Virus record (IMG/VR): IMGVR_UViG_3300050821_014293
Span: 1 to 61,460 of that record
From: a virus
Reading direction: 5' to 3' (one strand)
Length of the DNA: 61,460 nt
Both the position numbers and the translations under genes were made by a program. Shown here one piece after another: positions 3,888 to 27,980 of the stretch (position 1 is the first letter of the stretch; each line of letters opens with the position of its first letter). The notes under the pieces are model-generated. The model searched no databases. It was given only the letters and a program-made list of their open reading frames with translations, and was not told the origin of the DNA.

Positions 3888-4475
3888 CTAGCTCGCCCCC
3901 TTTAGCGCCTTGAGCGCGCCGACGATCGCCTTACGCACGGTAGGGTTATTGACTATTCCAATGTGGCTTTCATGCGGTAGATAGCCGCTATAGAACTTGG
4001 TGTGAGTATTGCCGGGGGCCGGAAAGGCCATGCCACCGCCAGGGCCGGCGCTCTGGTGGAAGTAGTAGAACGCGTCGATGTTGTCCTGCACGTACCAATG
4101 CCCAGCTGGCGGCGTGGTAGCCGGCCTCGTCCACGGAGCGACGCCCGGCGCGTTGCTCGCCCAGTTCGTCGCGTCGAGCGCGATGAACAGCGGCGAGTGG
4201 ATGCCCTGCGCCTTCAGCCTATCAGCCGCGTAGAACGCTGCCATCGCCCCCATGCTGTGACCGAGGAAGACGATAGCCTCGCCGCGCTGGTGCGCGGCAA
4301 GCATCGGCTGCATGATCTCCACCTCGAACAGCGGGCGCGGGTCGAGGCCGCCGACGAGATTGAAAAACACCCCGGTCTCCGCGTGCAGGTAGGCGATGAG
4401 CAACTCGAGCGGCGCGCCGACGAGCGGGTCGGCAAGGCCCTTGCAGGCGACGGCGTAGAGTTTCTGGCCAGTCAT
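3888..4475 (-). CDS. Alpha/beta hydrolase (lipase/esterase-like) in the lysis cluster
   Basis: 195 residues from the ATG at 4475, which overlaps the lysozyme stop (ATGA). The nucleophile elbow GHSMG (Ser74) follows a beta-strand (IVFL). An Asp after the next strand (IALDATN) and a late His (HESHIGI) complete a plausible triad. It lacks the circular-permutation and linker features I would expect of a mycobacteriophage LysB, but a similar envelope-ester role is possible. Placement between an endolysin and a peptidase suggests action on lipid or esterified polysaccharide at lysis or entry; the substrate is unknown. Confidence 0.75.
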   Translation of the reverse strand: MTGQKLYAVACKGLADPLVGAPLELLIAYLHAETGVFFNLVGGLDPRPLFEVEIMQPMLAAHQRGEAIVFLGHSMGAMAAFYAADRLKAQGIHSPLFIALDATNWASNAPGVAPWTRPATTPPAGHWYVQDNIDAFYYFHQSAGPGGGMAFPAPGNTHTKFYSGYLPHESHIGIVNNPTVRKAIVGALKALKGAS

Positions 4476-5062
4476 GCCACGCTCTCCCCCGCACTTTCTC
4501 GAACGAAATGCACCGAGCTGTCGAGCTGGGCTATGCTCGCGAGGAGGGGCGCGCAGCCCGGCTGGGTATCCCATACATCAGGATCGAACACGTGATCTCG
4601 AATATACTTCCCCCTGATCTGAATATTTGTCCCGCCCCACACATACGGCGAGGGGCGCGAGCCGTAGCCCCAGCCGTTAAAGCCTTCGCACTGGAAGAGC
4701 TGTTTCTCCAGTCTCCAGTCCTTGACATCGACGAGGAGATCGACCTTGAGCGCGTCGACTGCGCCGTCGATGAATGCGCTCGAGCCCCTGAATGGCCCCC
4801 TACCCTTCGGGACAATCGTCGTAACACGAGATAGCGATTGCCCATTACCGAGGTACGTGTCGAAATTCGCATCTCCCTCCCTGCGATGAATGACCGCTAT
4901 CATCGCCCAGGGCACGCCCGTCAGCGTCTCGACAGCCTGGTAGCGCTCCTTGTGCTCTAGCGCGAGGCGCGCCAGCGAGGTGAACTCCGCCCGCCGCCCT
5001 GCGTTGATCGTCATCCGATCCCACCACTGAGCGAAGCTCGGCCAAATCGCGCTGTAGCGCAC
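4472..5062 (-). CDS. Endolysin, COG5526-type lysozyme
   Basis: 196 residues with a GTG start just after the upstream stop. The core 'LTGVPWAMIAVIHRREG' matches the hallmark of the lysozyme family COG5526, in which the Glu after the His-Arg-Arg/Glu segment (Glu62 here) is the likely catalytic acid; 'NGQSLSR' and 'GRGPF' follow as in that family. It would cut peptidoglycan glycan strands. There is no signal peptide, so it needs a holin, consistent with the candidate downstream in the same transcript. Confidence 0.8.
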   Translation of the reverse strand: MRYSAIWPSFAQWWDRMTINAGRRAEFTSLARLALEHKERYQAVETLTGVPWAMIAVIHRREGDANFDTYLGNGQSLSRVTTIVPKGRGPFRGSSAFIDGAVDALKVDLLVDVKDWRLEKQLFQCEGFNGWGYGSRPSPYVWGGTNIQIRGKYIRDHVFDPDVWDTQPGCAPLLASIAQLDSSVHFVRESAGESVA

Positions 5063-5295
5063 TATATGCTCTCCTTCCCGCGACAGCCGTAGGCGACCTC
5101 AAAGGGCACGCCGTCAGGCACGCTGATGAACGGTCGCACCTCTTCCACTGCCTCCGCGATTTCCTTCTTATTATTCTCCACGTACGCTGCGCACTCCTGC
5201 ATCGTGCCAAACGTGTGCTCGTAGAGATCGCCCACGATGGGGCGGCCAGCGACAGTCGTGATGATGAAGAATATATGAATGACAGTCATGTCCAT
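5062..5295 (-). CDS. Small exported/membrane protein, paralog of the gene at 60853
   Basis: 77 residues. A hydrophobic N-terminus (MTVIHIFFIITTVAG) is followed by a soluble domain with DLYEHTFGTMQECAAYV and a final FEVAYGCRG. The same order of motifs (DLYSHTFNTMQQCREYA, FEVRYGCRG) is found in the 96-residue protein at 60853-61143, so the two are paralogs. The two Cys are conserved and could form a disulfide outside the cytoplasm. The start overlaps the upstream stop (TGATG). Role unknown. Confidence 0.7.
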   Translation of the reverse strand: MDMTVIHIFFIITTVAGRPIVGDLYEHTFGTMQECAAYVENNKKEIAEAVEEVRPFISVPDGVPFEVAYGCRGKESI

Positions 5296-5663
5296 CAGCC
5301 GCCCGCTCCAGGCATGAAACAACGCACGTTCGGCACGCCCAGGCTGTCGCGATAAATCCAGGCAATGGCCTGACCGAACCTGTTCGGCCCCTCGACGACT
5401 TCCTCCGGGCTCACGACGACCCAATTCTGATCCAGCCTCACGCGATAATGCGTCTCACCATTCACCACTGTAGTGTCCCACTCAGCATCCGCAAGTGTCG
5501 TACCATCGATGTACGAGCAGCATGGATAGCCACCCCTGCTCGTCAAACTGTTCATCCACTTATCGAGATCTGGACGATCTCGAATGTGCGCGCGAGCGCT
5601 GGGCGCAGCGAGCGCCGAGGACGCTACGAGTGCGAGCATGATATGCCTCGTTCGCCTCTTCAT
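5295..5663 (-). CDS. Secreted Cys-rich protein, first gene of the late block
   Basis: 122 residues. A classical signal peptide (MKRRTRHIMLALVASSALA then APSARA) is followed by a domain with GGYPCCSYIDG and a late NVRCFMPG. This resembles the small periplasmic 'WYPxxCC...RCF' proteins common in Rhizobiales genomes and their phages; a second, early-expressed member is at 10066. It is the promoter-proximal gene of the leftward late transcript. Function unknown; a periplasmic location is well supported. Confidence 0.7.
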   Translation of the reverse strand: MKRRTRHIMLALVASSALAAPSARAHIRDRPDLDKWMNSLTSRGGYPCCSYIDGTTLADAEWDTTVVNGETHYRVRLDQNWVVVSPEEVVEGPNRFGQAIAWIYRDSLGVPNVRCFMPGAGG

Positions 5664-5987: not shown

Positions 5988-6007
5988 CCCCCCGCGCGAG
6001 CGGGGGG
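5988..6007. other. GC hairpin with GNRA loop
   Basis: Eight base pairs (CCCCCCGC with GCGGGGGG) close on the tetraloop GCGA. It is followed about 25 bp later by another inverted repeat (CGCGGGCGG at 6033 with CCGCCCGCG at 6062). Neither is followed by a clear T-run, so RNA structure or replication/packaging roles are as likely as termination. Confidence 0.5.
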
Positions 6008-6100
6008 CGTCAAGGCCCTCATACCCCCCTTTCGCGGGCGGCGAGGTGGTTCCACGTGGGACCGCCCGCGCAAGCCGCGCCGCGCGACTCACGGCGCGCG

Positions 6101-6135
6101 ATCACGTAATGTTGCACGATGTAACATTATGTGAT
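6101..6135. promoter_or_regulatory. Palindromic operator, divergent region
   Basis: ATCACGTAATGTT, a 9-bp spacer and AACATTATGTGAT form a near-perfect palindrome (12 of 13 positions). The same half-sites recur singly at 7522 (AACAATATGTGAT) and 11145 (ATCACGAAATGTT). The location between divergent blocks in an AT-rich island is typical of a regulator site. The protein that reads it is unknown. Confidence 0.65.
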
Positions 6136-6378
6136 TGAACTCGCCCGACAATTCGCACGTGCGGCGCGCATTCGAGTTGACGTGGGCGCGCATGTGTGCG
6201 ATAACACCATTGCCGACGCGCAGCGTGTCGGCGGCGCGGGGTCCGAACCCCGCAATGGAGTCAAGAGACACAGAACACCACTCGCCCGAAGAAGGCCGTA
6301 TGGGCAACGGCGGCTGCATGGTTCCTCGGACGCCATGCGGTCACTCATGATCCGAGGTTCACAATTGGAGAATGAAAT

Positions 6379-6936
6379 ATGACCGACACGACAACTGACG
6401 ATGTGACCGAACGCGATCTCGTGTGGAAGGATGCGGCCACGGGTCACGAGTACCGCGTCGCGTTTGCCGATGTGCCCGCGCGCAATCTTGCAGTGCTGTG
6501 CCAGAAGGGCATAACGCACTTCATGGGCAACGAGCAGGCCAGCAAGTACGTCGCATACAAGGCAAGCGACGTGGGCAAGGCGGCGAGCAAGGAGGATCAG
6601 CTCGCGTGGCTCAAGACCTGCCGCGACGAGGCGTTTGAGAAGGTCCTGAATGGCACGCTGGGCATTCGCAGCGCAAGCGGCGCGGCGCGGGTCACGGGGA
6701 TCGACGCGGTTATGCGTCGCATCGCGGTGGAGATGCTCACCGCGGAACTGGCCATACACAACGCGAAACTGCCCACGGGGGACAAGACTATCGAGGTCCG
6801 CGGGAAGGCTTACACTCGCGAACAGCTCATCGAGACCATGCTCAAGCGCCGCGCCGACCTTATCAAGCAAAAGGCGCAGGAGCGCATGACAACCACCGGC
6901 GATGACCTGTTCGCCGAGGACGATGCCGCCGCGTAG
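6379..6936 (+). CDS. First early gene, unknown 185-aa protein
   Basis: The ATG is preceded by TTGGAGAATGAAAT. The protein is soluble and helix-rich with a charged C-terminus (DDLFAEDDAAA). There is no Cys cluster, signal peptide or recognised domain. As the gene nearest the divergent control region it may be expressed first and could be a host-takeover or regulatory protein; that is inference from position. The downstream 850 bp are non-coding. Confidence 0.7.
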   Translation: MTDTTTDDVTERDLVWKDAATGHEYRVAFADVPARNLAVLCQKGITHFMGNEQASKYVAYKASDVGKAASKEDQLAWLKTCRDEAFEKVLNGTLGIRSASGAARVTGIDAVMRRIAVEMLTAELAIHNAKLPTGDKTIEVRGKAYTREQLIETMLKRRADLIKQKAQERMTTTGDDLFAEDDAAA

Positions 6937-7782
6937 CGTGCAACACGAAACATGGTGGGGCATCCGCGCCCCACCAACCAAGGCGCCCGAAGGAAAGCCG
7001 CACTGGGTCGCGGTGGGCCGGCAGCCACGAGACTGCCGGTCCAATCATTTCTGGATCGGAGGGCGCGGCGCGCGGCCCACGCAATGCGGCGCGGCGCTGC
7101 GAACATTGCATGCAACATTTACCGTAAACATTGCTCGGCACGTCCGTGCACGTCGCCGTGCGGGCGCAGCGTGGGCCACCGTGTCCCGCGCGCAGCGAAG
7201 TGCGGCAGCGTATCCTACTCCTTACCTAATATATATATATATCTATACTAAGAAGAACAAACACGCAAACGCGAGGCTAATCACAAGGCAAATCACTGGG
7301 GGCTGCGCGGGTGCGACCACGCGGCCCACGGGTTGTTCACGCAACGCGGCCCACTCCACGCCCCACGGCCCACGACTGTTGCACATCGGCAACCACGCGG
7401 GCATACCATGCAACATTTACGGCGAATGTTGCATGCAATGTTGCTGTCACATTGTTCATATTCCATGGGCCGCCCTCTTCCAGCGCTCGCGCCAGGGCAA
7501 CGAGTCGATGTAATATAATGTAACAATATGTGATCGAGTCAGAGCAACATTTACATTGACACCCCGCGGTCCACGTGGTACGCCACACGAATACGTCGGC
7601 GACCCACCAACCAGTCACTTTCACGCAACACCGCAACCACGTAACTCGAAAAGGACCAACCACAATGCAAGTCATGTTTACACGCTGGTGTCTCGATCCT
7701 GCCGGGCGCACGCCTCTCAAGAGTTCCTCGTCCAGGGTACGGTCGCGGTAGTCCTCGCGGCGCTCAACGAAGCGGAGCGCGC
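6937..7782. promoter_or_regulatory. Iteron-like, AT-tract intergenic region (candidate origin/operator array)
   Basis: 846 bp without a convincing gene. It holds several copies of GCAACATT/AATGTTGC (7102, 7112, 7126, 7410, 7425, 7437, 7544), two of which form a perfect 10-bp inverted repeat (ATGCAACATT and AATGTTGCAT around 7409). An alternating TA tract lies near 7230 and a TATAAT at 7514-7519. A start-like leader (AAAGGACC then CCACAATG) occurs at 7650-7667; it opens only 28 codons, whereas another frame reads as coding up to the stop at 7784-7786. This combination suits an early promoter/operator array or a replication origin. Confidence 0.55.
7409..7444. repeat. Inverted and direct AATGTTGC repeats
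   Basis: ATGCAACATT, seven bases, then AATGTTGCAT form an uninterrupted 10-bp palindrome, followed immediately by another GCAATGTTGC. This is the densest part of the motif cluster in the non-coding region between the first early gene and the AAA+ gene. Confidence 0.65.
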
Positions 7783-20310: not shown

Positions 20311-20531
20311 AGATCACTCTCGTCATAGTCATGCTCTGGACGACGCACTTAGAAGTCACTACCAGCACCACCACGTCCAATAGTACCCAAATGTTAACGG
20401 CTCCACAGTGGACAACGAGCGGCAGACGCAAGATTGTGATCCCGATGCCTGATCTGCCCGTGTGCCGCGAGGCACGGAAGCAGTTCATAGACATCCCCGA
20501 TGTCTTCGCCGTGGCGTGTGATGAGGAGTGA
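20307..20531 (+). CDS. Small exported protein with two Cys (74 aa)
   Basis: Hydrophobic start (MKITLVIVMLWTT), a Thr/Ser-rich stretch, then PVCREARKQF and VFAVACDEE, whose two Cys could pair outside the cytoplasm. Third gene of the lower-GC cassette. Its end supplies the AGGAG ribosome site of the methyltransferase gene. Confidence 0.55.
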   Translation: MKITLVIVMLWTTHLEVTTSTTTSNSTQMLTAPQWTTSGRRKIVIPMPDLPVCREARKQFIDIPDVFAVACDEE

Positions 20532-20536
20532 AGATA

Positions 20537-22024
20537 ATGGTCGTCACTGATCGTTACGCCCAGCTCGCACCGCACGACATTCGCGCAAGCGATACGCGGC
20601 AGCGCAGCGATGTGGAGCTGGACGATCAGTTCCTCGCCTCAATTCGCGAGCGGGGGATCATGTCTCCGCTGCTCGTGACCGACGAGCATGTGCTCGTCGC
20701 CGGCGGGCGCAGGCTCGCGGCCGCGCGCAAGCTCGTTCTCGCGAGCGTGCCAGTGCGCTACGTCAAGCCTGGCCTGAGCGCCGAGGACATCGAGCTGATC
20801 GAGCTGGAAGAGAATATTAGGCGAAAGGATCTGAGCTGGCAAGACGAGGTGCGCGCGGTCGAGCGCCTTCACACGATGTGGTGTAAGCGCGATACGGGAT
20901 GGAATCAGGCCAAGAGTCACGAGGTACTCGGCCATCAGATGCCAGTCTATCTCCGCGTCGCGCGTGCGCTTGAAGACCCGCGTGAGTGCGAGAAGATCGC
21001 CCACGCGGTAGGGATAAGGGCTGCGTGGAATATCTGCGCTCGCATCGATGAGCGCACGCACGACGCGGTGCTCGATGAGATATCCGGCGCATTCTCAGAC
21101 ATAGGCGAGCGTTACACGAAGGATGAACTCGGGGCGCTTCCCGCGGACCGAGCAGAGACGACCAGCGGCGGAGAGGGCCAATCGTCGCCGCTGGACGGGG
21201 AGGGAGAGCGTAGCTCGGTCGTGGTTGGCGAGCCTACAAGCGAGGACGGAGCTGGTCCCTCCGTCCCCGCCTCTCCCTCCCTTCGCGGGCGCAGCGGTCG
21301 CGAGCGCTACACGCCCCTCGACGATGTGCTCGTGGGAGACTTCTGCGAGTGGAGCGCGACGTACGATGGACCGAAGTTCAATTTCTTGCATTGCGACTTC
21401 CCGTACGGCAAGCGGGTATTCGCTGGCGCGCAGGGCGGCGCTCGGAGCGAGGAGGAGTTCAAGTATGATGATGAACCCAGCACATACTGGGGTCTCTGCA
21501 AAGCGTTGTGCTCTGCGCTCGACAGGCTGCTCTCCCCCACCTCGCATATGATGTTCTGGCTCAGCGCGGACATTTCCATGCTTCACGAGACGATCGAATT
21601 CTTTCGCCTCCACGCCCCGTCGTTGCTCTTCGCTAAGCGCGCGCTGATCTGGCATAAGAGCGACAACGCGGGTATCGTGACTGACGTGCGCCGCGCACCA
21701 CGGTGGACGTACGAGACCGCGCTCTTCGCCTCCCGTGGCGACCGGGTGATAGTAAAGCCGGTCGCGGCCTCGTACGCTGCGCCCACCGCGCGCGCAGCGC
21801 ACCCTAGCACGAAGCCCGAGCCCATGCTCAGGCACTTCTTCTCTATGTTCGTAGATGATACGACGAGGATGCTCGATCCCTCCTGCGGGAGCGGCAGCGC
21901 GCTGCGCGCAGCGGAGTCGCTAGGCGCAGAGCAGGTGATGGGTGTCGAGCGCAGCGCGGAGTTCGCTAGCACAGCGATACGAGAACTGCGTGCATTCCGT
22001 GCGCTCGCGGAGATCGTGGGATGA
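20537..22024 (+). CDS. ParB-like domain fused to DNA methyltransferase
   Basis: 495 residues from the ATG after AGGAG. The N-terminal ParB/Srx part has VAGGRRLAAARKL (54-66) and ELIELEENIRR (86-96). After a Ser/Gly-rich linker, the methyltransferase shows motif IV as CDFPYG (286-291), HPSTKPE as motif X (422-428) and DPSCGSG as motif I (447-453). This IV-X-I order is that of beta-class N6-adenine/N4-cytosine enzymes. It may protect phage DNA from restriction or mark it for replication; the target is unknown. The aromatic pocket is FPY rather than the usual PPY/W. Confidence 0.85.
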   Translation: MVVTDRYAQLAPHDIRASDTRQRSDVELDDQFLASIRERGIMSPLLVTDEHVLVAGGRRLAAARKLVLASVPVRYVKPGLSAEDIELIELEENIRRKDLSWQDEVRAVERLHTMWCKRDTGWNQAKSHEVLGHQMPVYLRVARALEDPRECEKIAHAVGIRAAWNICARIDERTHDAVLDEISGAFSDIGERYTKDELGALPADRAETTSGGEGQSSPLDGEGERSSVVVGEPTSEDGAGPSVPASPSLRGRSGRERYTPLDDVLVGDFCEWSATYDGPKFNFLHCDFPYGKRVFAGAQGGARSEEEFKYDDEPSTYWGLCKALCSALDRLLSPTSHMMFWLSADISMLHETIEFFRLHAPSLLFAKRALIWHKSDNAGIVTDVRRAPRWTYETALFASRGDRVIVKPVAASYAAPTARAAHPSTKPEPMLRHFFSMFVDDTTRMLDPSCGSGSALRAAESLGAEQVMGVERSAEFASTAIRELRAFRALAEIVG

Positions 22025-23461: not shown

Positions 23462-23673
23462 GCAAGTGGCACCGCACACGAATGAGGACGCTCAGCGCGG
23501 AGCGCGACGACTGGCGTACCAGGGCAGTCAAGTTGACGGGTGACAACCATAATCTTCGCATAGCATTGTGCATATTCGAGGAAGTGATTAGGAAGATTGG
23601 CCGAGGTGAGGAATGTTGGCAGGCCGAGCTGGCGCGGGATGCTATGCGGCGATTCATGCTGGGTGATCCATGA
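23458..23673 (+). CDS. Small basic helical protein (71 aa)
   Basis: Basic start (MSKWHRTRMRTLSAERDDW) and a helical second half. Overlaps the UDG/exonuclease gene by 4 nt. No family. Confidence 0.55.
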   Translation: MSKWHRTRMRTLSAERDDWRTRAVKLTGDNHNLRIALCIFEEVIRKIGRGEECWQAELARDAMRRFMLGDP

Positions 23674-24827
23674 GCACAGATGCGTTCGCCCACACATCAG
23701 GCCCCCACGACGCTCGCTGCGTCATGATCGGCGAGGCCTGGGGGGAGAGTGAGGATCAGCACGGCGTGCCATTCGCTGGCGCGTCGGGCCGCGAATTCGC
23801 CCGGATGTTGATCGAGTCAGGCTGGGACATCGACGATCTTCTCGCTCGCGCAGTCGAGCAGCTCTCAACGCGTGATTTCCTCGCCGCGCGTGAGGAGTGG
23901 CTCGAGCGCGCGAGCGTACTGCTCACGAACGTCTTCGCCCTGCGGCCTACGAATAATAATCTCGCCTATCTCTGCGCTGCGCGCAGCGACCTTCCTGCGA
24001 GCTACAATCTCCCACCCATTCGCAACGAGAACCCGAGATATGTCAAAGAAGATTATCTGCCTGAGCTGTCGCGACTACGAGCAGAAGTGGAACAATCGCA
24101 GCGCAATCTTATCATCGCACTGGGTGGATCAGCTTGCTGGGCTATGGTTAGCTCACATGCTATCGGACGCCTGCGCGGTGCAGTCAGCACGGCGCGCGCA
24201 AGCGCACCAGCGCAGCTCAGCAACACGAAGATCATCCCAACGTATCACCCGGCCGCGATCTTCCGCGCGTGGCAGTGGCGCGTGATAGTGCTAGCAGATC
24301 TCATCAAGGCTAAGCGCGAGATGGCGTTCGCTGAAGTGCGTCGGCCAGCGCGGAGCATCCACGTCAATCCTAGCATCGACATGGTTGAGGCCTGGACACA
24401 TCTCACATTGAACGGACCCTACGCGTTCCTCGCGCCAGATATCGAGACGATGAATGGACAAATACGCTGTATAGGCTTCGCGCGCTCACGCAGCGAGGCA
24501 ATGGTCGTGCCGTTCATTCGCGACCTGCAGGGCATATCGTACTGGGAGGACGAGGACCACGAGCTTCGCGCGTGGGAATGCGTCCGCGCGCTCCTCGACT
24601 CGCCCATTCCTAAAATATTCCAGAACGGGGTGTTCGATCTCCAGTATCTCATGCGTGCAGGGCTCAGCGTACGCTGCGCGACGCACGATACCATGCTGCT
24701 GCATCACGCGCTGTACCCGGAGCTGCAGAAGGGCCTGGGGTTCCTCGGCAGCGTTTACACGAATGAGCCAGCGTGGAAGACCATGCGGTTGCATAAGGGG
24801 GAAGAGGAGTTGAAGCGAGATGAGTGA
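23670..24827 (+). CDS. Uracil-DNA glycosylase fused to partial DnaQ-like 3'-5' exonuclease
   Basis: 385 residues. Residues 17-215 are a UDG-superfamily domain: GEAWGESED (21-29), FAGASG (35-40) and TYHPAAIF (191-198). Residues 250-385 are the start of a family-A polymerase exonuclease: motif I DIET (257-260), motif II FQNGVFDLQYL (317-327), then THDTMLLHHALYPELQKGLG. The expected motif III (YxxxD) is absent; it is found at the start of the polymerase gene at 26454. Proofreading would therefore require both polypeptides. Coupling UDG to the exonuclease suggests uracil handling at the fork. Confidence 0.85.
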   Translation: MSTDAFAHTSGPHDARCVMIGEAWGESEDQHGVPFAGASGREFARMLIESGWDIDDLLARAVEQLSTRDFLAAREEWLERASVLLTNVFALRPTNNNLAYLCAARSDLPASYNLPPIRNENPRYVKEDYLPELSRLRAEVEQSQRNLIIALGGSACWAMVSSHAIGRLRGAVSTARASAPAQLSNTKIIPTYHPAAIFRAWQWRVIVLADLIKAKREMAFAEVRRPARSIHVNPSIDMVEAWTHLTLNGPYAFLAPDIETMNGQIRCIGFARSRSEAMVVPFIRDLQGISYWEDEDHELRAWECVRALLDSPIPKIFQNGVFDLQYLMRAGLSVRCATHDTMLLHHALYPELQKGLGFLGSVYTNEPAWKTMRLHKGEEELKRDE

Positions 24828-24969
24828 ACGCAAGGTCAAGGTGCGTATAGAGTTTCATGCAGAGTGCCCCCTTTGCGGGCACCACGTGCCATATCACTGC
24901 GAGACGGAAGAGGAAGCCAAGAAATGCAAATGGATGAGGAAACAGAGAGATGAGCAAGTTCAGAGATGA
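24820..24969 (+). CDS. Small CxxC protein (49 aa), in the polymerase split
   Basis: KVKVRIEFHAECPLCGHHV carries one CxxC plus His and later Cys residues, a possible zinc site; the end is basic (KWMRKQRDEQVQR). It overlaps the UDG/exonuclease gene by 8 nt and the next gene by 20 nt. First of seven small genes separating the two polymerase parts. Confidence 0.55.
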   Translation: MSERKVKVRIEFHAECPLCGHHVPYHCETEEEAKKCKWMRKQRDEQVQR

Positions 24970-25171
24970 GATCGCCCACGGGCTTGAGAAGTATAGTGCC
25001 AATAAGTATGATCTCCTTCAGCACATGAAGGGGCATCAAGTCAAAGAGTGGCTGCTGAAGGGTTGCGAGGAGGAGGACGCGCATACAATCGGCATGGCGG
25101 TCCTGCGTATGCCCGAGTGGCTCCTCATCCGCCGTCTCGCCCGCGTGCTGGCAGAGTTCGAGGATGTGTGA
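24950..25171 (+). CDS. Small helical protein (73 aa), in the polymerase split
   Basis: Starts MSKFRDEIAHGLEKYSANKY and is entirely helical. Overlaps both neighbours. No family recognised. Confidence 0.6.
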   Translation: MSKFRDEIAHGLEKYSANKYDLLQHMKGHQVKEWLLKGCEEEDAHTIGMAVLRMPEWLLIRRLARVLAEFEDV

Positions 25172-25530
25172 TGGCCACTAGATGCTGGTGCGGAAGATCA
25201 TTACTCTCGCGCGTCGAGCTACCCCAGCGCCGCGGGGGCACGAACTTCGAGTTTACACACTCGCGCATGCGCTTCGTCGCCAGCATCCGCGCAGCGCACA
25301 CGAACGCGGAGGTGACTGAGATTTTCCTGAACTCCGAGAAGATCGACTCTTTCGCGGACCTTCTCTCCCGCGACGCAGCATGCGCAATATCCATTGCGCT
25401 GCAGTACGGCGTCCCGCTCAGCGCCCTCGCGCACAGCATGGGCCGAAACGCGGACGGCAGCGCGTGTAGTCCGATTGGTGAGCTTCTGGACATCATAATG
25501 CGAGGCAATGATGGTGACAAAGCAGGATGA
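25171..25530 (+). CDS. TSCPD-like protein, in the polymerase split
   Basis: 119 residues. FLNSEKIDSFADLLSRDAA and LQYGVPLSALAHSMGRN plus SPIGELLDII match the TSCPD domain found at the end of B12-dependent ribonucleotide reductases and as stand-alone phage or bacterial proteins. WCG near the start may bind metal with later residues. A link to nucleotide metabolism is an inference. Confidence 0.65.
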   Translation: MATRCWCGRSLLSRVELPQRRGGTNFEFTHSRMRFVASIRAAHTNAEVTEIFLNSEKIDSFADLLSRDAACAISIALQYGVPLSALAHSMGRNADGSACSPIGELLDIIMRGNDGDKAG

Positions 25531-25666
25531 AGCGGTCTGGGGTTGCATCGGCGGCCTTCTCATGATCGTCGGCGCATTTCTCGCGAGTGGCCTTGGCGGA
25601 ATGATGTTCGCTAGCGGTCTGTGGCTCATACTCGGTCTGATCTGGGAGGCCCAACGTGGAGCGTAA
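25511..25666 (+). CDS. Two-span membrane protein (51 aa), in the polymerase split
   Basis: MVTKQDEAVWG is followed by two hydrophobic stretches (GGLLMIVGAFLASGLGG, MMFASGLWLILGLIW) and QRGA. Overlaps neighbours by 20 and 11 nt. Size and topology recall small holins or antiholins, but the early location argues for another membrane role. Confidence 0.5.
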   Translation: MVTKQDEAVWGCIGGLLMIVGAFLASGLGGMMFASGLWLILGLIWEAQRGA

Positions 25667-25973
25667 AACGTCGCAGCCCAACGTGGTGCCTGAAGCCGCA
25701 CTCTTGCACTTCGCCTTCACACAGCGGCAATACGTGGCAGTCTACAACGCTGTCGCATTCTTCGCGAAGAAGCTAGTCTCACCGCGCCAGAAGGAGATTG
25801 CGCTATCCGCGCTCGGAGTGCTCATGGCACCCACAGGTTTCTCGTTGCCTAGCGAGGTAAGCGTGGGCGAGAGCGCGCCCGTACACGAAGGACCTTCCAG
25901 CGCAGAACCGCCCGCGCGCTCGCGCAAGGGTCTCGATGCGCTGGTGCGTAGCACGCAGGGGAGAAAGAAGTGA
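25656..25973 (+). CDS. Unknown protein (105 aa), in the polymerase split
   Basis: GTG start 6 nt after GGGAGG. N-terminal helical domain (ALLHFAFTQRQYVAVYNAVA), then a disordered basic tail ending DALVRSTQGRKK, whose RSTQG is repeat-encoded. Confidence 0.6.
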   Translation: MERKTSQPNVVPEAALLHFAFTQRQYVAVYNAVAFFAKKLVSPRQKEIALSALGVLMAPTGFSLPSEVSVGESAPVHEGPSSAEPPARSRKGLDALVRSTQGRKK

Positions 25974-26248
25974 GCGCGCATACACCAGGGCCATGGAGGC
26001 TCACTGAGCCTGAGAATATCGCAACATCCATCTCGGGGCCTGATGGAGAGCTGGTCGTAGGCGGCGAGTTTGATGGCCAAATGGTGCCATTTAAGAGCCT
26101 GGCTGATGCGAGACTATGTGCCGCCGCGCCGGATTTATTGCAGGCACTTCTGCGCGTCATCGCGATAGCGGATAGAAAAACGGACGAGTTCGACGCAGCC
26201 CGCGCCGCCATCGCCAAGGCAACGGGGGATGGGAAAGGAGAAGCGTAA
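25970..26248 (+). CDS. HTPGPW-type phage protein
   Basis: 92 residues, GTG start. HTPGPWRL followed by strands and ADARLCAAAPDLLQALLRVI is a very common phage protein family of unknown function, usually in early gene clusters. Confidence 0.75.
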   Translation: MSAHTPGPWRLTEPENIATSISGPDGELVVGGEFDGQMVPFKSLADARLCAAAPDLLQALLRVIAIADRKTDEFDAARAAIAKATGDGKGEA

Positions 26249-26250
26249 AG

Positions 26251-26457
26251 ATGGATGAGAAAGATATAACTATCGTGCGTCTGCGTAAACAGCTTCGCTA
26301 TTGGCAAGGGTGCTGGAGAACGGAGCTAGAACAGGTCGAGTTACTGCGCGAAGAGAACGCGCGATTGAAGGTGAGTAATGATTTGCTCAGCTCGATGTCA
26401 CCGCGACCGCGAACGCACCCGTCCTGGCGCGACTATATCACCGCGTTGTTTAGATGA
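26251..26457 (+). CDS. Small coiled-coil protein (68 aa)
   Basis: Charged heptad-like helix (IVRLRKQLRYWQG and VELLREENARLKV). Overlaps the polymerase start by 4 nt. It is the last insert gene; a coiled coil here could mediate assembly of the split polymerase, which is speculation. Confidence 0.55.
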   Translation: MDEKDITIVRLRKQLRYWQGCWRTELEQVELLREENARLKVSNDLLSSMSPRPRTHPSWRDYITALFR

Positions 26458-27980
26458 GCATCATACGCACCGAGGAGCTGACGCCCTCAGCGCTCGACGC
26501 GCTGAGCGAAGGCGACGCGCACCAGATATACTGCGGACTCGACACGCTGGTGACGTTCGAGGTATTCGAGGAACTCTGCGCGCTTATTGCCTCGCGAGCC
26601 GTGGAGGGCGAAGCGCGCTGGCCTGTGACGTACAATTTCGAGCGGGGGCTGCAAGCCCCCGCGATCGAGATGATGCTGCGCGGGTTCCTGATCGACGACT
26701 TCGAGCGAGCGAGGGGGATCGCGCACACTCGCAGCGAGTACGCCCTCCTGCGCTCGCAGTTGGACGAGCTGGCGAACGCGGTATGGAGCGCAGGGCTGAA
26801 CCCACAATCGCCGAAGCAGCTCAAAGCGTTCTTCTACGAGCGCATGAGGCTGCCTGAGCAGTGGATTAGCGTGAAGGGCGAGCGCAAGCTTTCGCTCAAC
26901 CGGGAAGTGCTGGAGAAGCTCGAGATATACCTCCACGCGCGACCGATCATCGCGCTCATTCTCGAGGCGCGCACTCTGCGTAAGCGTCTCTCGGTGCTGG
27001 AAACAGAGGTCTCCCATGATGGAAGAATGCGAACGAGTTATAATATCGCTGGTACGAACACCGGACGGTGGTCGAGCAGTAGCGACGTTACAGGCATCGG
27101 AACGAATTTACAGAACATCACCCCTGAGCTTCGTCGCATGTTCATTGCTGACCCAGGATGGAAAATTTGTGGAATTGATCTGGAGCAGGCGGAATCACGC
27201 GAAGTCGGGTGGCTTTGCTACACGTTATTCGCCGACTCCTCGTATCTCGACGCCTGCGAGGGCGGGGACCTCCATACGACGACGGCGAGGCTGATCTGGC
27301 CCGACCGCGCATGGACTGGCGACGCCCGCGCGGACCGCGCACTCGCGGAGGAGATATTCTATCGCGACTTCTCCTACCGCGATATGGCGAAGCGGGGAGG
27401 CCACGGGTCGAACTACATGGGCACCGCGTGGACAATGTCGAGGCACTTGAAGGTCCCTGCGCGCGTCATGGATACATTTCAGACCGCGTACTTCGCCGCA
27501 TATCCCTGCATCCAGCGCTGGCATCAATGGGTCGCGCAACAGGTCCAGCGTCATGGGACGCTGACGACGCCGTTCGGCCGCGAGAGGCGCTTCTTCGGTC
27601 GGCCTGACGACGATACGACGCTGCGTAAGGCGATCGCGTTCTCGCCGCAGAGCAGCACGGGCGACAGGCTCAATCTAGGATTATGGAGAATCTGGAAGAA
27701 TATGCCTAGCATACAGCTCCTCGCGCAGGTGCACGATGCAGTCTATTTCCAGTATCCCGAGGACGCGGATGAGCATGCGCTTGTCGCGCAGGCCCTAGCG
27801 CTCGTCCGCGTGACGCTGCGCGCAGGGGGCCGTGAGTTCGTCATACCGGGCGAGGCCAAGATTGGATGGAACTGGGCACAAGCGAGCGCAGATAATCCTG
27901 ATGGGCTAGTGAAGTGGTCCGCGCAACGCGTGGACACGCGCAAGCGCGGGCCGCAAGGGCGCGAGCGCAAGCTCGGCTAG
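26454..27980 (+). CDS. Family-A DNA polymerase carrying the exonuclease motif III
   Basis: 508 residues. Residues 22-40 contain YCGLDTLVTFEV, the Y-x3-D exonuclease motif III missing from the UDG/exonuclease gene. The polymerase domain follows: TNTGRWSS (202-209), motif A GIDLEQAESR (240-249), motif B RDMAKRGGHGSNYMG (309-323) and motif C VHD (426-428). The residue equivalent to E. coli Pol I Phe762 is His (317). It should replicate phage DNA. The split within the exonuclease domain is unusual; no intein or intron is visible at either edge. Confidence 0.9.
   Translation: MSIIRTEELTPSALDALSEGDAHQIYCGLDTLVTFEVFEELCALIASRAVEGEARWPVTYNFERGLQAPAIEMMLRGFLIDDFERARGIAHTRSEYALLRSQLDELANAVWSAGLNPQSPKQLKAFFYERMRLPEQWISVKGERKLSLNREVLEKLEIYLHARPIIALILEARTLRKRLSVLETEVSHDGRMRTSYNIAGTNTGRWSSSSDVTGIGTNLQNITPELRRMFIADPGWKICGIDLEQAESREVGWLCYTLFADSSYLDACEGGDLHTTTARLIWPDRAWTGDARADRALAEEIFYRDFSYRDMAKRGGHGSNYMGTAWTMSRHLKVPARVMDTFQTAYFAAYPCIQRWHQWVAQQVQRHGTLTTPFGRERRFFGRPDDDTTLRKAIAFSPQSSTGDRLNLGLWRIWKNMPSIQLLAQVHDAVYFQYPEDADEHALVAQALALVRVTLRAGGREFVIPGEAKIGWNWAQASADNPDGLVKWSAQRVDTRKRGPQGRERKLG

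Follow-up and report, generated by a model that had tools for sequence, protein, structure and literature searches.

The split polymerase locus

The window, i.e., the complete stretch of viral DNA that was analyzed (61,460 nt), encodes a family-A DNA polymerase in two separate genes on the plus strand. The first gene codes for chain 1, in which a uracil-DNA glycosylase (UDG) domain is followed by the beginning of an exonuclease domain:

23670..24827, plus strand: chain 1 (P0001, 385 aa), UDG and front part of the 3'-5' exonuclease
24438..24446, plus strand: exonuclease motif I of chain 1, D257 and E259 (DIET)
24636..24638, plus strand: exonuclease motif II of chain 1, D323 (NGVFD)
24774..24827, plus strand: tail at the C terminus of chain 1 (...KRDE, residues 369-385) with the stop codon; the split point

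The UDG domain spans residues 10-202 (Pfam UDG PF03167, 1.2e-17) and contains the family-4-like UDG motifs GEAWGESE (motif 1, GExxGxxE) and TYHP (the H-P motif 2). Family-4 UDG structures were the top matches to chain 1 in a structure search, and the Foldseek matches comprised family-4 UDG, Klenow and ExnV1. The N-terminal CxxC of the 4Fe-4S cluster was not found before motif 1 in P0001, and therefore the UDG of chain 1 is not a canonical family-4 enzyme. The DNA_pol_A_exo1 profile was matched at its front only (profile positions 50-129 of 173). No YxxxD motif III is present 3' of motif II in chain 1, which ends in ...WKTMRLHKGEEELKRDE followed by the stop codon. The earlier note, which had described a UDG/exonuclease protein with DIET and NGVFD that lacks motif III, was correct on this point. 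In the tail, K370 is invariant across the family and K382 and D384 are nearly invariant, and residues 368-385 were predicted to be disordered in chain 1 alone (pLDDT under 50, single-chain structure prediction).

The second gene codes for the remainder of the enzyme:

26454..27980, plus strand: chain 2 (P0002, 508 aa), last exonuclease helix and whole family-A polymerase domain
26529..26543, plus strand: exonuclease motif III of chain 2, Y26 and D30 (YCGLD)
27177..27737, plus strand: polymerase motifs A (D242), B (K313, H317, Y321) and C (D428) of chain 2, conserved over 90 loci

Chain 2 matched DNA_pol_A (PF00476, 4.1e-36) with equivalents of Asp705, Lys758, Tyr766 and Asp882 in motifs A, B and C, and its Foldseek matches were Taq, Bst and Klenow. 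A stop codon in its frame lies directly upstream of the ATG, and the protein starts with an N-terminal stretch of ∼25 residues (MPIIxTxxL...), in which Thr6 is nearly invariant. Motif III is located on a predicted helix (residues 19-48). The identification of YCGLD as motif III was borne out by alignment with the unsplit UDG-exonuclease-polymerase phages L003, L004, L005 and L008-L010. The C-half profile aligned to E. coli Klenow starting at chain residue 173; Klenow chain residue 1 was taken to be Pol I residue 324, which places Y23 of the C-half consensus on Tyr497. In phage G20c Pol I the C-half profile aligned at the matching place.

Motifs I (DxE), II (NxxxD) and III (YxxxD) of a DEDDy exonuclease (PF01612) are all present, divided over two proteins. 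The break lies, as had been proposed from the window, between catalytic residues of one exonuclease domain, with motifs I and II on chain 1 and motif III on chain 2. The phrog_17 polymerase profile was covered nearly end to end by the two chains (positions 548-801 on chain 1 and 809-1235 on chain 2), and thus almost nothing was lost or duplicated at the joint. Ends that are conserved yet unfolded would be expected of parts that become ordered on a partner.

Relatives sharing the split

A tblastn search against phage records identified one close cultured relative, Caulobacter phage Kuura, which shares the split, its gap holding two genes. More distant phages with this type of polymerase, including the six named above, are mostly unsplit. 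Two IMG/VR searches seeded by the polymerase half yielded loci L011-L099, a search with the Kuura polymerase yielded a single relative, the Kuura-like contig L117, and contigs L118-L121 from bacterial genomes were added to the locus set. Relatives with the same split were numerous: wherever both halves were present, Kuura included, the gene was cut at the same linker (90/90 loci), and separate ORFs replace the usual arrangement of exonuclease and polymerase on one chain. A sequencing frameshift or an assembly error was rejected as an explanation, as about 90 independent contigs and a cultured phage all show the split.

With the first half as seed, a search that was equally able to pick up fused genes, and that shared some contigs with the earlier searches, resulted in 68 split and 0 fused loci; in 8 further loci the first half stood alone, close to the end of the contig. 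In IMG/VR a pattern query with P0001 gave no match, but a profile of first halves did. In L086 the UDG, the exonuclease front and the polymerase are encoded by three genes. The split is a fixed, inherited architecture of the whole clade.

Conservation of catalytic residues on both chains

The D and E of motif I and the D of motif II are invariant in all 89 split loci in which these residues could be read. The 90th locus is L086, where the exonuclease front, with DIET and NGMYD, is found on a third ORF. The Y and D of motif III are invariant in 90 of 90 split loci. In the polymerase domain, the equivalents of D705, K758 and D882 are invariant where readable and that of Y766 is present in 89 of 90 loci. 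Average column identity in 23-sequence sets was 44% for chain 1 and 54% for chain 2, and the lowest identity to the window in these sets was about 33% and about 41%, respectively. For the exonuclease part of chain 1, dN/dS was ∼0.07-0.20 in most measurable pairs and 0.55 in one nearly identical pair, on very few changes; many pairs were saturated at silent sites and the ratios serve as supporting evidence only. The invariant D/E and D on chain 1 and Y and D on chain 2 argue strongly for a working nuclease that would be rebuilt from two chains, and the invariance could partly reflect folding constraints.

Bst and Taq polymerases keep an inactive exonuclease domain as a scaffold. Proofreading might likewise have been lost here, with the exonuclease remnants on each chain acting only as structural scaffold, and divPolA1 of some phages indeed lacks all three Asp (PMC11348598). 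Against this, the catalytic positions, which are the ones that change in scaffold-only enzymes, are invariant on both chains over 90 loci, and dN/dS of the exonuclease part is low. The earlier note had considered either that two chains are needed or that proofreading is lost; with five catalytic positions invariant, the first alternative is favored. Because the catalytic residues are invariant on both chains, loss of proofreading is unlikely, and very little weight is given to a purely structural role.

The Tyr and Asp of motif III are needed in the Klenow exonuclease. If chain 1 were a self-standing UDG/nuclease repair protein, no longer cooperating with the polymerase, this would fit the repair nature of a UDG domain and the up to 2.8 kb of unrelated genes between the two. 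However, chain 1 lacks this Tyr and Asp and no conserved gap gene provides them, the invariant motif III on the polymerase would then serve nothing, and nearly all contigs of sufficient reach have the first half upstream of the polymerase half. Such an independent repair protein is considered improbable. Chain 1 could also act separately with some other partner.

Genes in the gap

The gap between chain 1 and chain 2 of the window is filled by seven overlapping ORFs in 1,626 bp, in agreement with the seven small genes noted before:

24820..24969, plus strand: gap gene 1, 49 aa, small Cys-containing protein (ORF; weak phrog_6332 match, E 0.005)
24950..25171, plus strand: gap gene 2, 73 aa, no assigned function (ORF)
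25171..25530, plus strand: gap gene 3, 119 aa, no assigned function; L011, L034, L038, L042 and L099 have homologues in their gaps
25508..25666, plus strand: gap gene 4, 52 aa, hydrophobic, membrane-like (ORF)
25656..25973, plus strand: gap gene 5, 105 aa, no assigned function; L038 and L042 have homologues in their gaps
25970..26248, plus strand: gap gene 6, 92 aa, phrog_1273 family of unknown function (E 2.8e-16)
26251..26457, plus strand: gap gene 7, 68 aa, no assigned function; its stop codon overlaps with the ATG of the polymerase gene

The nearest relatives, L038 and L042, have two of these seven genes as well. Among the 88 loci in which it was measured, the gap ranged from -1 (L120) to 2,793 nt (L022), and ORFs covered a median of 94% of it. 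In L120 both ORFs overlap by one base (TGATG), and the two chains persist without an insert. No gap gene family is common to all loci, the largest, a small membrane-like protein, being found in 23; a common gap gene needed for assembly was rejected on these grounds. Other families are DUF1937/DUF4406 and DUF7768 (nucleoside deoxyribosyltransferase-like), HAD and YfbR-like proteins, and one further family looks MazG-like. Given such free variation in gap content, and the lack of any gap in L120, the split was not caused by the seven genes. The gap genes look like cargo and not machinery.

It is also conceivable that the halves are joined into one chain before they act, through a split intein, an intron spliced in trans or in cis, or a ribosomal hop. 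Phage polymerase genes often contain introns and inteins, and for the split in phage MEP401 an intron was suggested by the authors (PMC10580990). At the present locus there is no room for intein halves, as chain 1 ends ∼16 residues after a conserved WK and chain 2 starts ∼25 residues before motif III. Rfam gave no match in the window region, nor in any of 12 other loci, the gaps are nearly filled with ORFs, and L120 offers no space for an intron. The initial observation that no intein or intron is visible at the edges of the window gap thus held, including the lack of intein-sized extensions, and rejoining is barely credible.

Origin of the split

In a tree of the polymerase halves all split loci fell into one clade (99% SH-aLRT). 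This clade has 57 rows, of which 55 are split and 2 lack the first half on the contig. One change between the split and unsplit states was found on the tree and no reversal was needed; long branches in its deepest part (L005, L006, L008) leave the exact sister group unsure.

The earlier note saw no homing nuclease at the edges of the gap. For the window this was confirmed, as Pfam and phrog profile searches identified no homing endonuclease gene between the halves; for the relatives it does not hold, since HNH genes are present in the gap of the split loci L011, L017, L055 and L058 and in the linker of L114. In L114 an HNH endonuclease gene (phrog_3377, E 8e-28) occupies the homologous linker at 5016-5441, so that the polymerase gene is interrupted between motifs II and III independently of the split clade. 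This contig is a relative of the unsplit L003 group (L100-L112) and was omitted from the tree by the redundancy filter; its placement in an otherwise unsplit sister lineage rests on its match to L003. Most plausibly, the split originated by entry of a homing endonuclease gene and later loss of the endonuclease, which is the simplest origin, not a proven one. It is suggested by one clear case in the sister clade and four in the split clade, and the HNH genes could also be later visitors to an existing split. The same process was described in a review for split nrdA and possibly gene 43 of T4-like phages, where the reassembled enzymes are active (PMC2988022).

Comparison with known split enzymes

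Essential phage enzymes encoded in two pieces are known. Gene 43 is split into gp43A and gp43B in Aeromonas phages 25 and 44RR, and the chains of phage 25 co-purify and are active, as is the split NrdA of phage Aeh1 (PMC2988022). These are a family-B polymerase and a ribonucleotide reductase in a few phages, associated with a homing endonuclease or intercistronic sequence, whereas the present family-A split is fixed across a whole clade, has usually lost the endonuclease and, unlike the others, runs between motifs II and III of an exonuclease active site. In MEP401/MEP402-type (OM43) phages and Vibrio phage VS-ABTNL-3 (L007) a family-A polymerase is encoded by two ORFs with a small gene between them (PMC10580990), but there it is the polymerase domain that is cut, and one chain has the complete exonuclease.

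Phage PaBG (PMC7412058), L003, L004 and L005 share the order UDG, exonuclease, polymerase, in contrast on an unbroken chain. ExnV1 from a hot-spring virus metagenome (7r0t, PMC9629493) resembles chain 1 in being a family-A-type exonuclease on a chain without a polymerase, but it has all motifs including the Tyr497/Asp501 equivalents that chain 1 lacks. The split in Kuura (OQ067476; PMC9959647) is identical and belongs to the same clade. Its first half is annotated as 'hypothetical protein' (OQ067476), and the passages of the Kuura paper that were covered report the polymerase and mention neither the split nor the first half (PMC9959647). A term search of two papers on viral PolA diversity found no mention of a split in the text covered (PMC6302109, PMC9069017). 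Split phage polymerases are known, and a clade-wide cut through the exonuclease active site is apparently new: no report of one in a family-A polymerase was found, in a literature search that was thin on subscription journals.

A probable two-chain proofreading polymerase

We are confident that the two genes encode a genuine two-subunit family-A replicative polymerase, probably split once through a homing endonuclease and retained since, that would proofread across its chains. Chain 1 would supply the UDG domain and the larger part of the DEDDy 3'-5' exonuclease fold, including the ligands D, E and D. Chain 2 would add the final exonuclease helix, which bears the catalytic Tyr and Asp and leads straight into the thumb and palm of the polymerase. 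The chains are proposed to dock at the position that the exonuclease domain occupies in Klenow and to complete the proofreading active site jointly, and the conserved chain 1 tail and the new extension at the N terminus of chain 2 likely help to hold the joint. Proofreading should occur only when both proteins come together. Such an assembly has precedents in gp43A/B, whose chains co-purify and are active, and in split NrdA, which has full activity (PMC2988022). In this view, insertion of a homing endonuclease gene into the linker that connects motif II to motif III would have split the gene at the root of this phage lineage, and the split would then have been retained while the DNA between the halves was freely replaced.

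A more tentative idea, which we consider possible but doubtful, is that proofreading is separable and fidelity adjustable. Chain 2 alone would copy without editing, and binding of chain 1 would switch on editing together with uracil recognition; the three-gene locus L086 would be the extreme case.

Gene fission usually occurs between domains. Here the cut in an essential replicative enzyme passes through a catalytic site and separates residues that have to come together, and it has persisted through divergence to about 40% identity with no reversal seen. The finding corrects the annotation of the first half, which is a hypothetical protein in the Kuura record, and from the polymerase gene alone such enzymes would be taken for proofreading-deficient. 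The split is real and clade-wide, most likely forming a two-chain proofreading polymerase, and these phages are a naturally occurring case in which to study the persistence of split active sites and the possible supply of proofreading in trans.

Polymerase gene arrangements in related phages

At L086, a locus of the split clade, the polymerase is made up of three separate pieces (L086:3905-7506), with a small inserted ORF between the first two:

3905-4681, UDG piece
5014-5430, exonuclease front
5995-7506, motif III and polymerase piece

The same kind of polymerase is split differently in Vibrio phage VS-ABTNL-3 (L007:3926-7087), directly upstream of polymerase motif A, and its two parts are separated by a 185-aa gene. 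Another split was identified in MW202554 (L006:1658-4364), directly past motif III between exonuclease and polymerase, where the gap of ∼150 bp contains a Cys-rich fragment. The exonuclease linker of L114, from an otherwise unsplit lineage, holds an inserted HNH endonuclease gene (5016-5441), and a second, related ORF is found at L114:68-499.

Residues of the split-clade polymerases

At the position matching F762 of Klenow, which serves in nucleotide discrimination, all 90 split-clade polymerases carry a His (27402-27404 in the window). Motif C reads HDA or HDS in place of HDE, and its His is replaced by Tyr or Phe in 20 loci. Upstream of the polymerase genes, the window encodes a DNA methyltransferase with a fused ParB-like domain (20528-22024).
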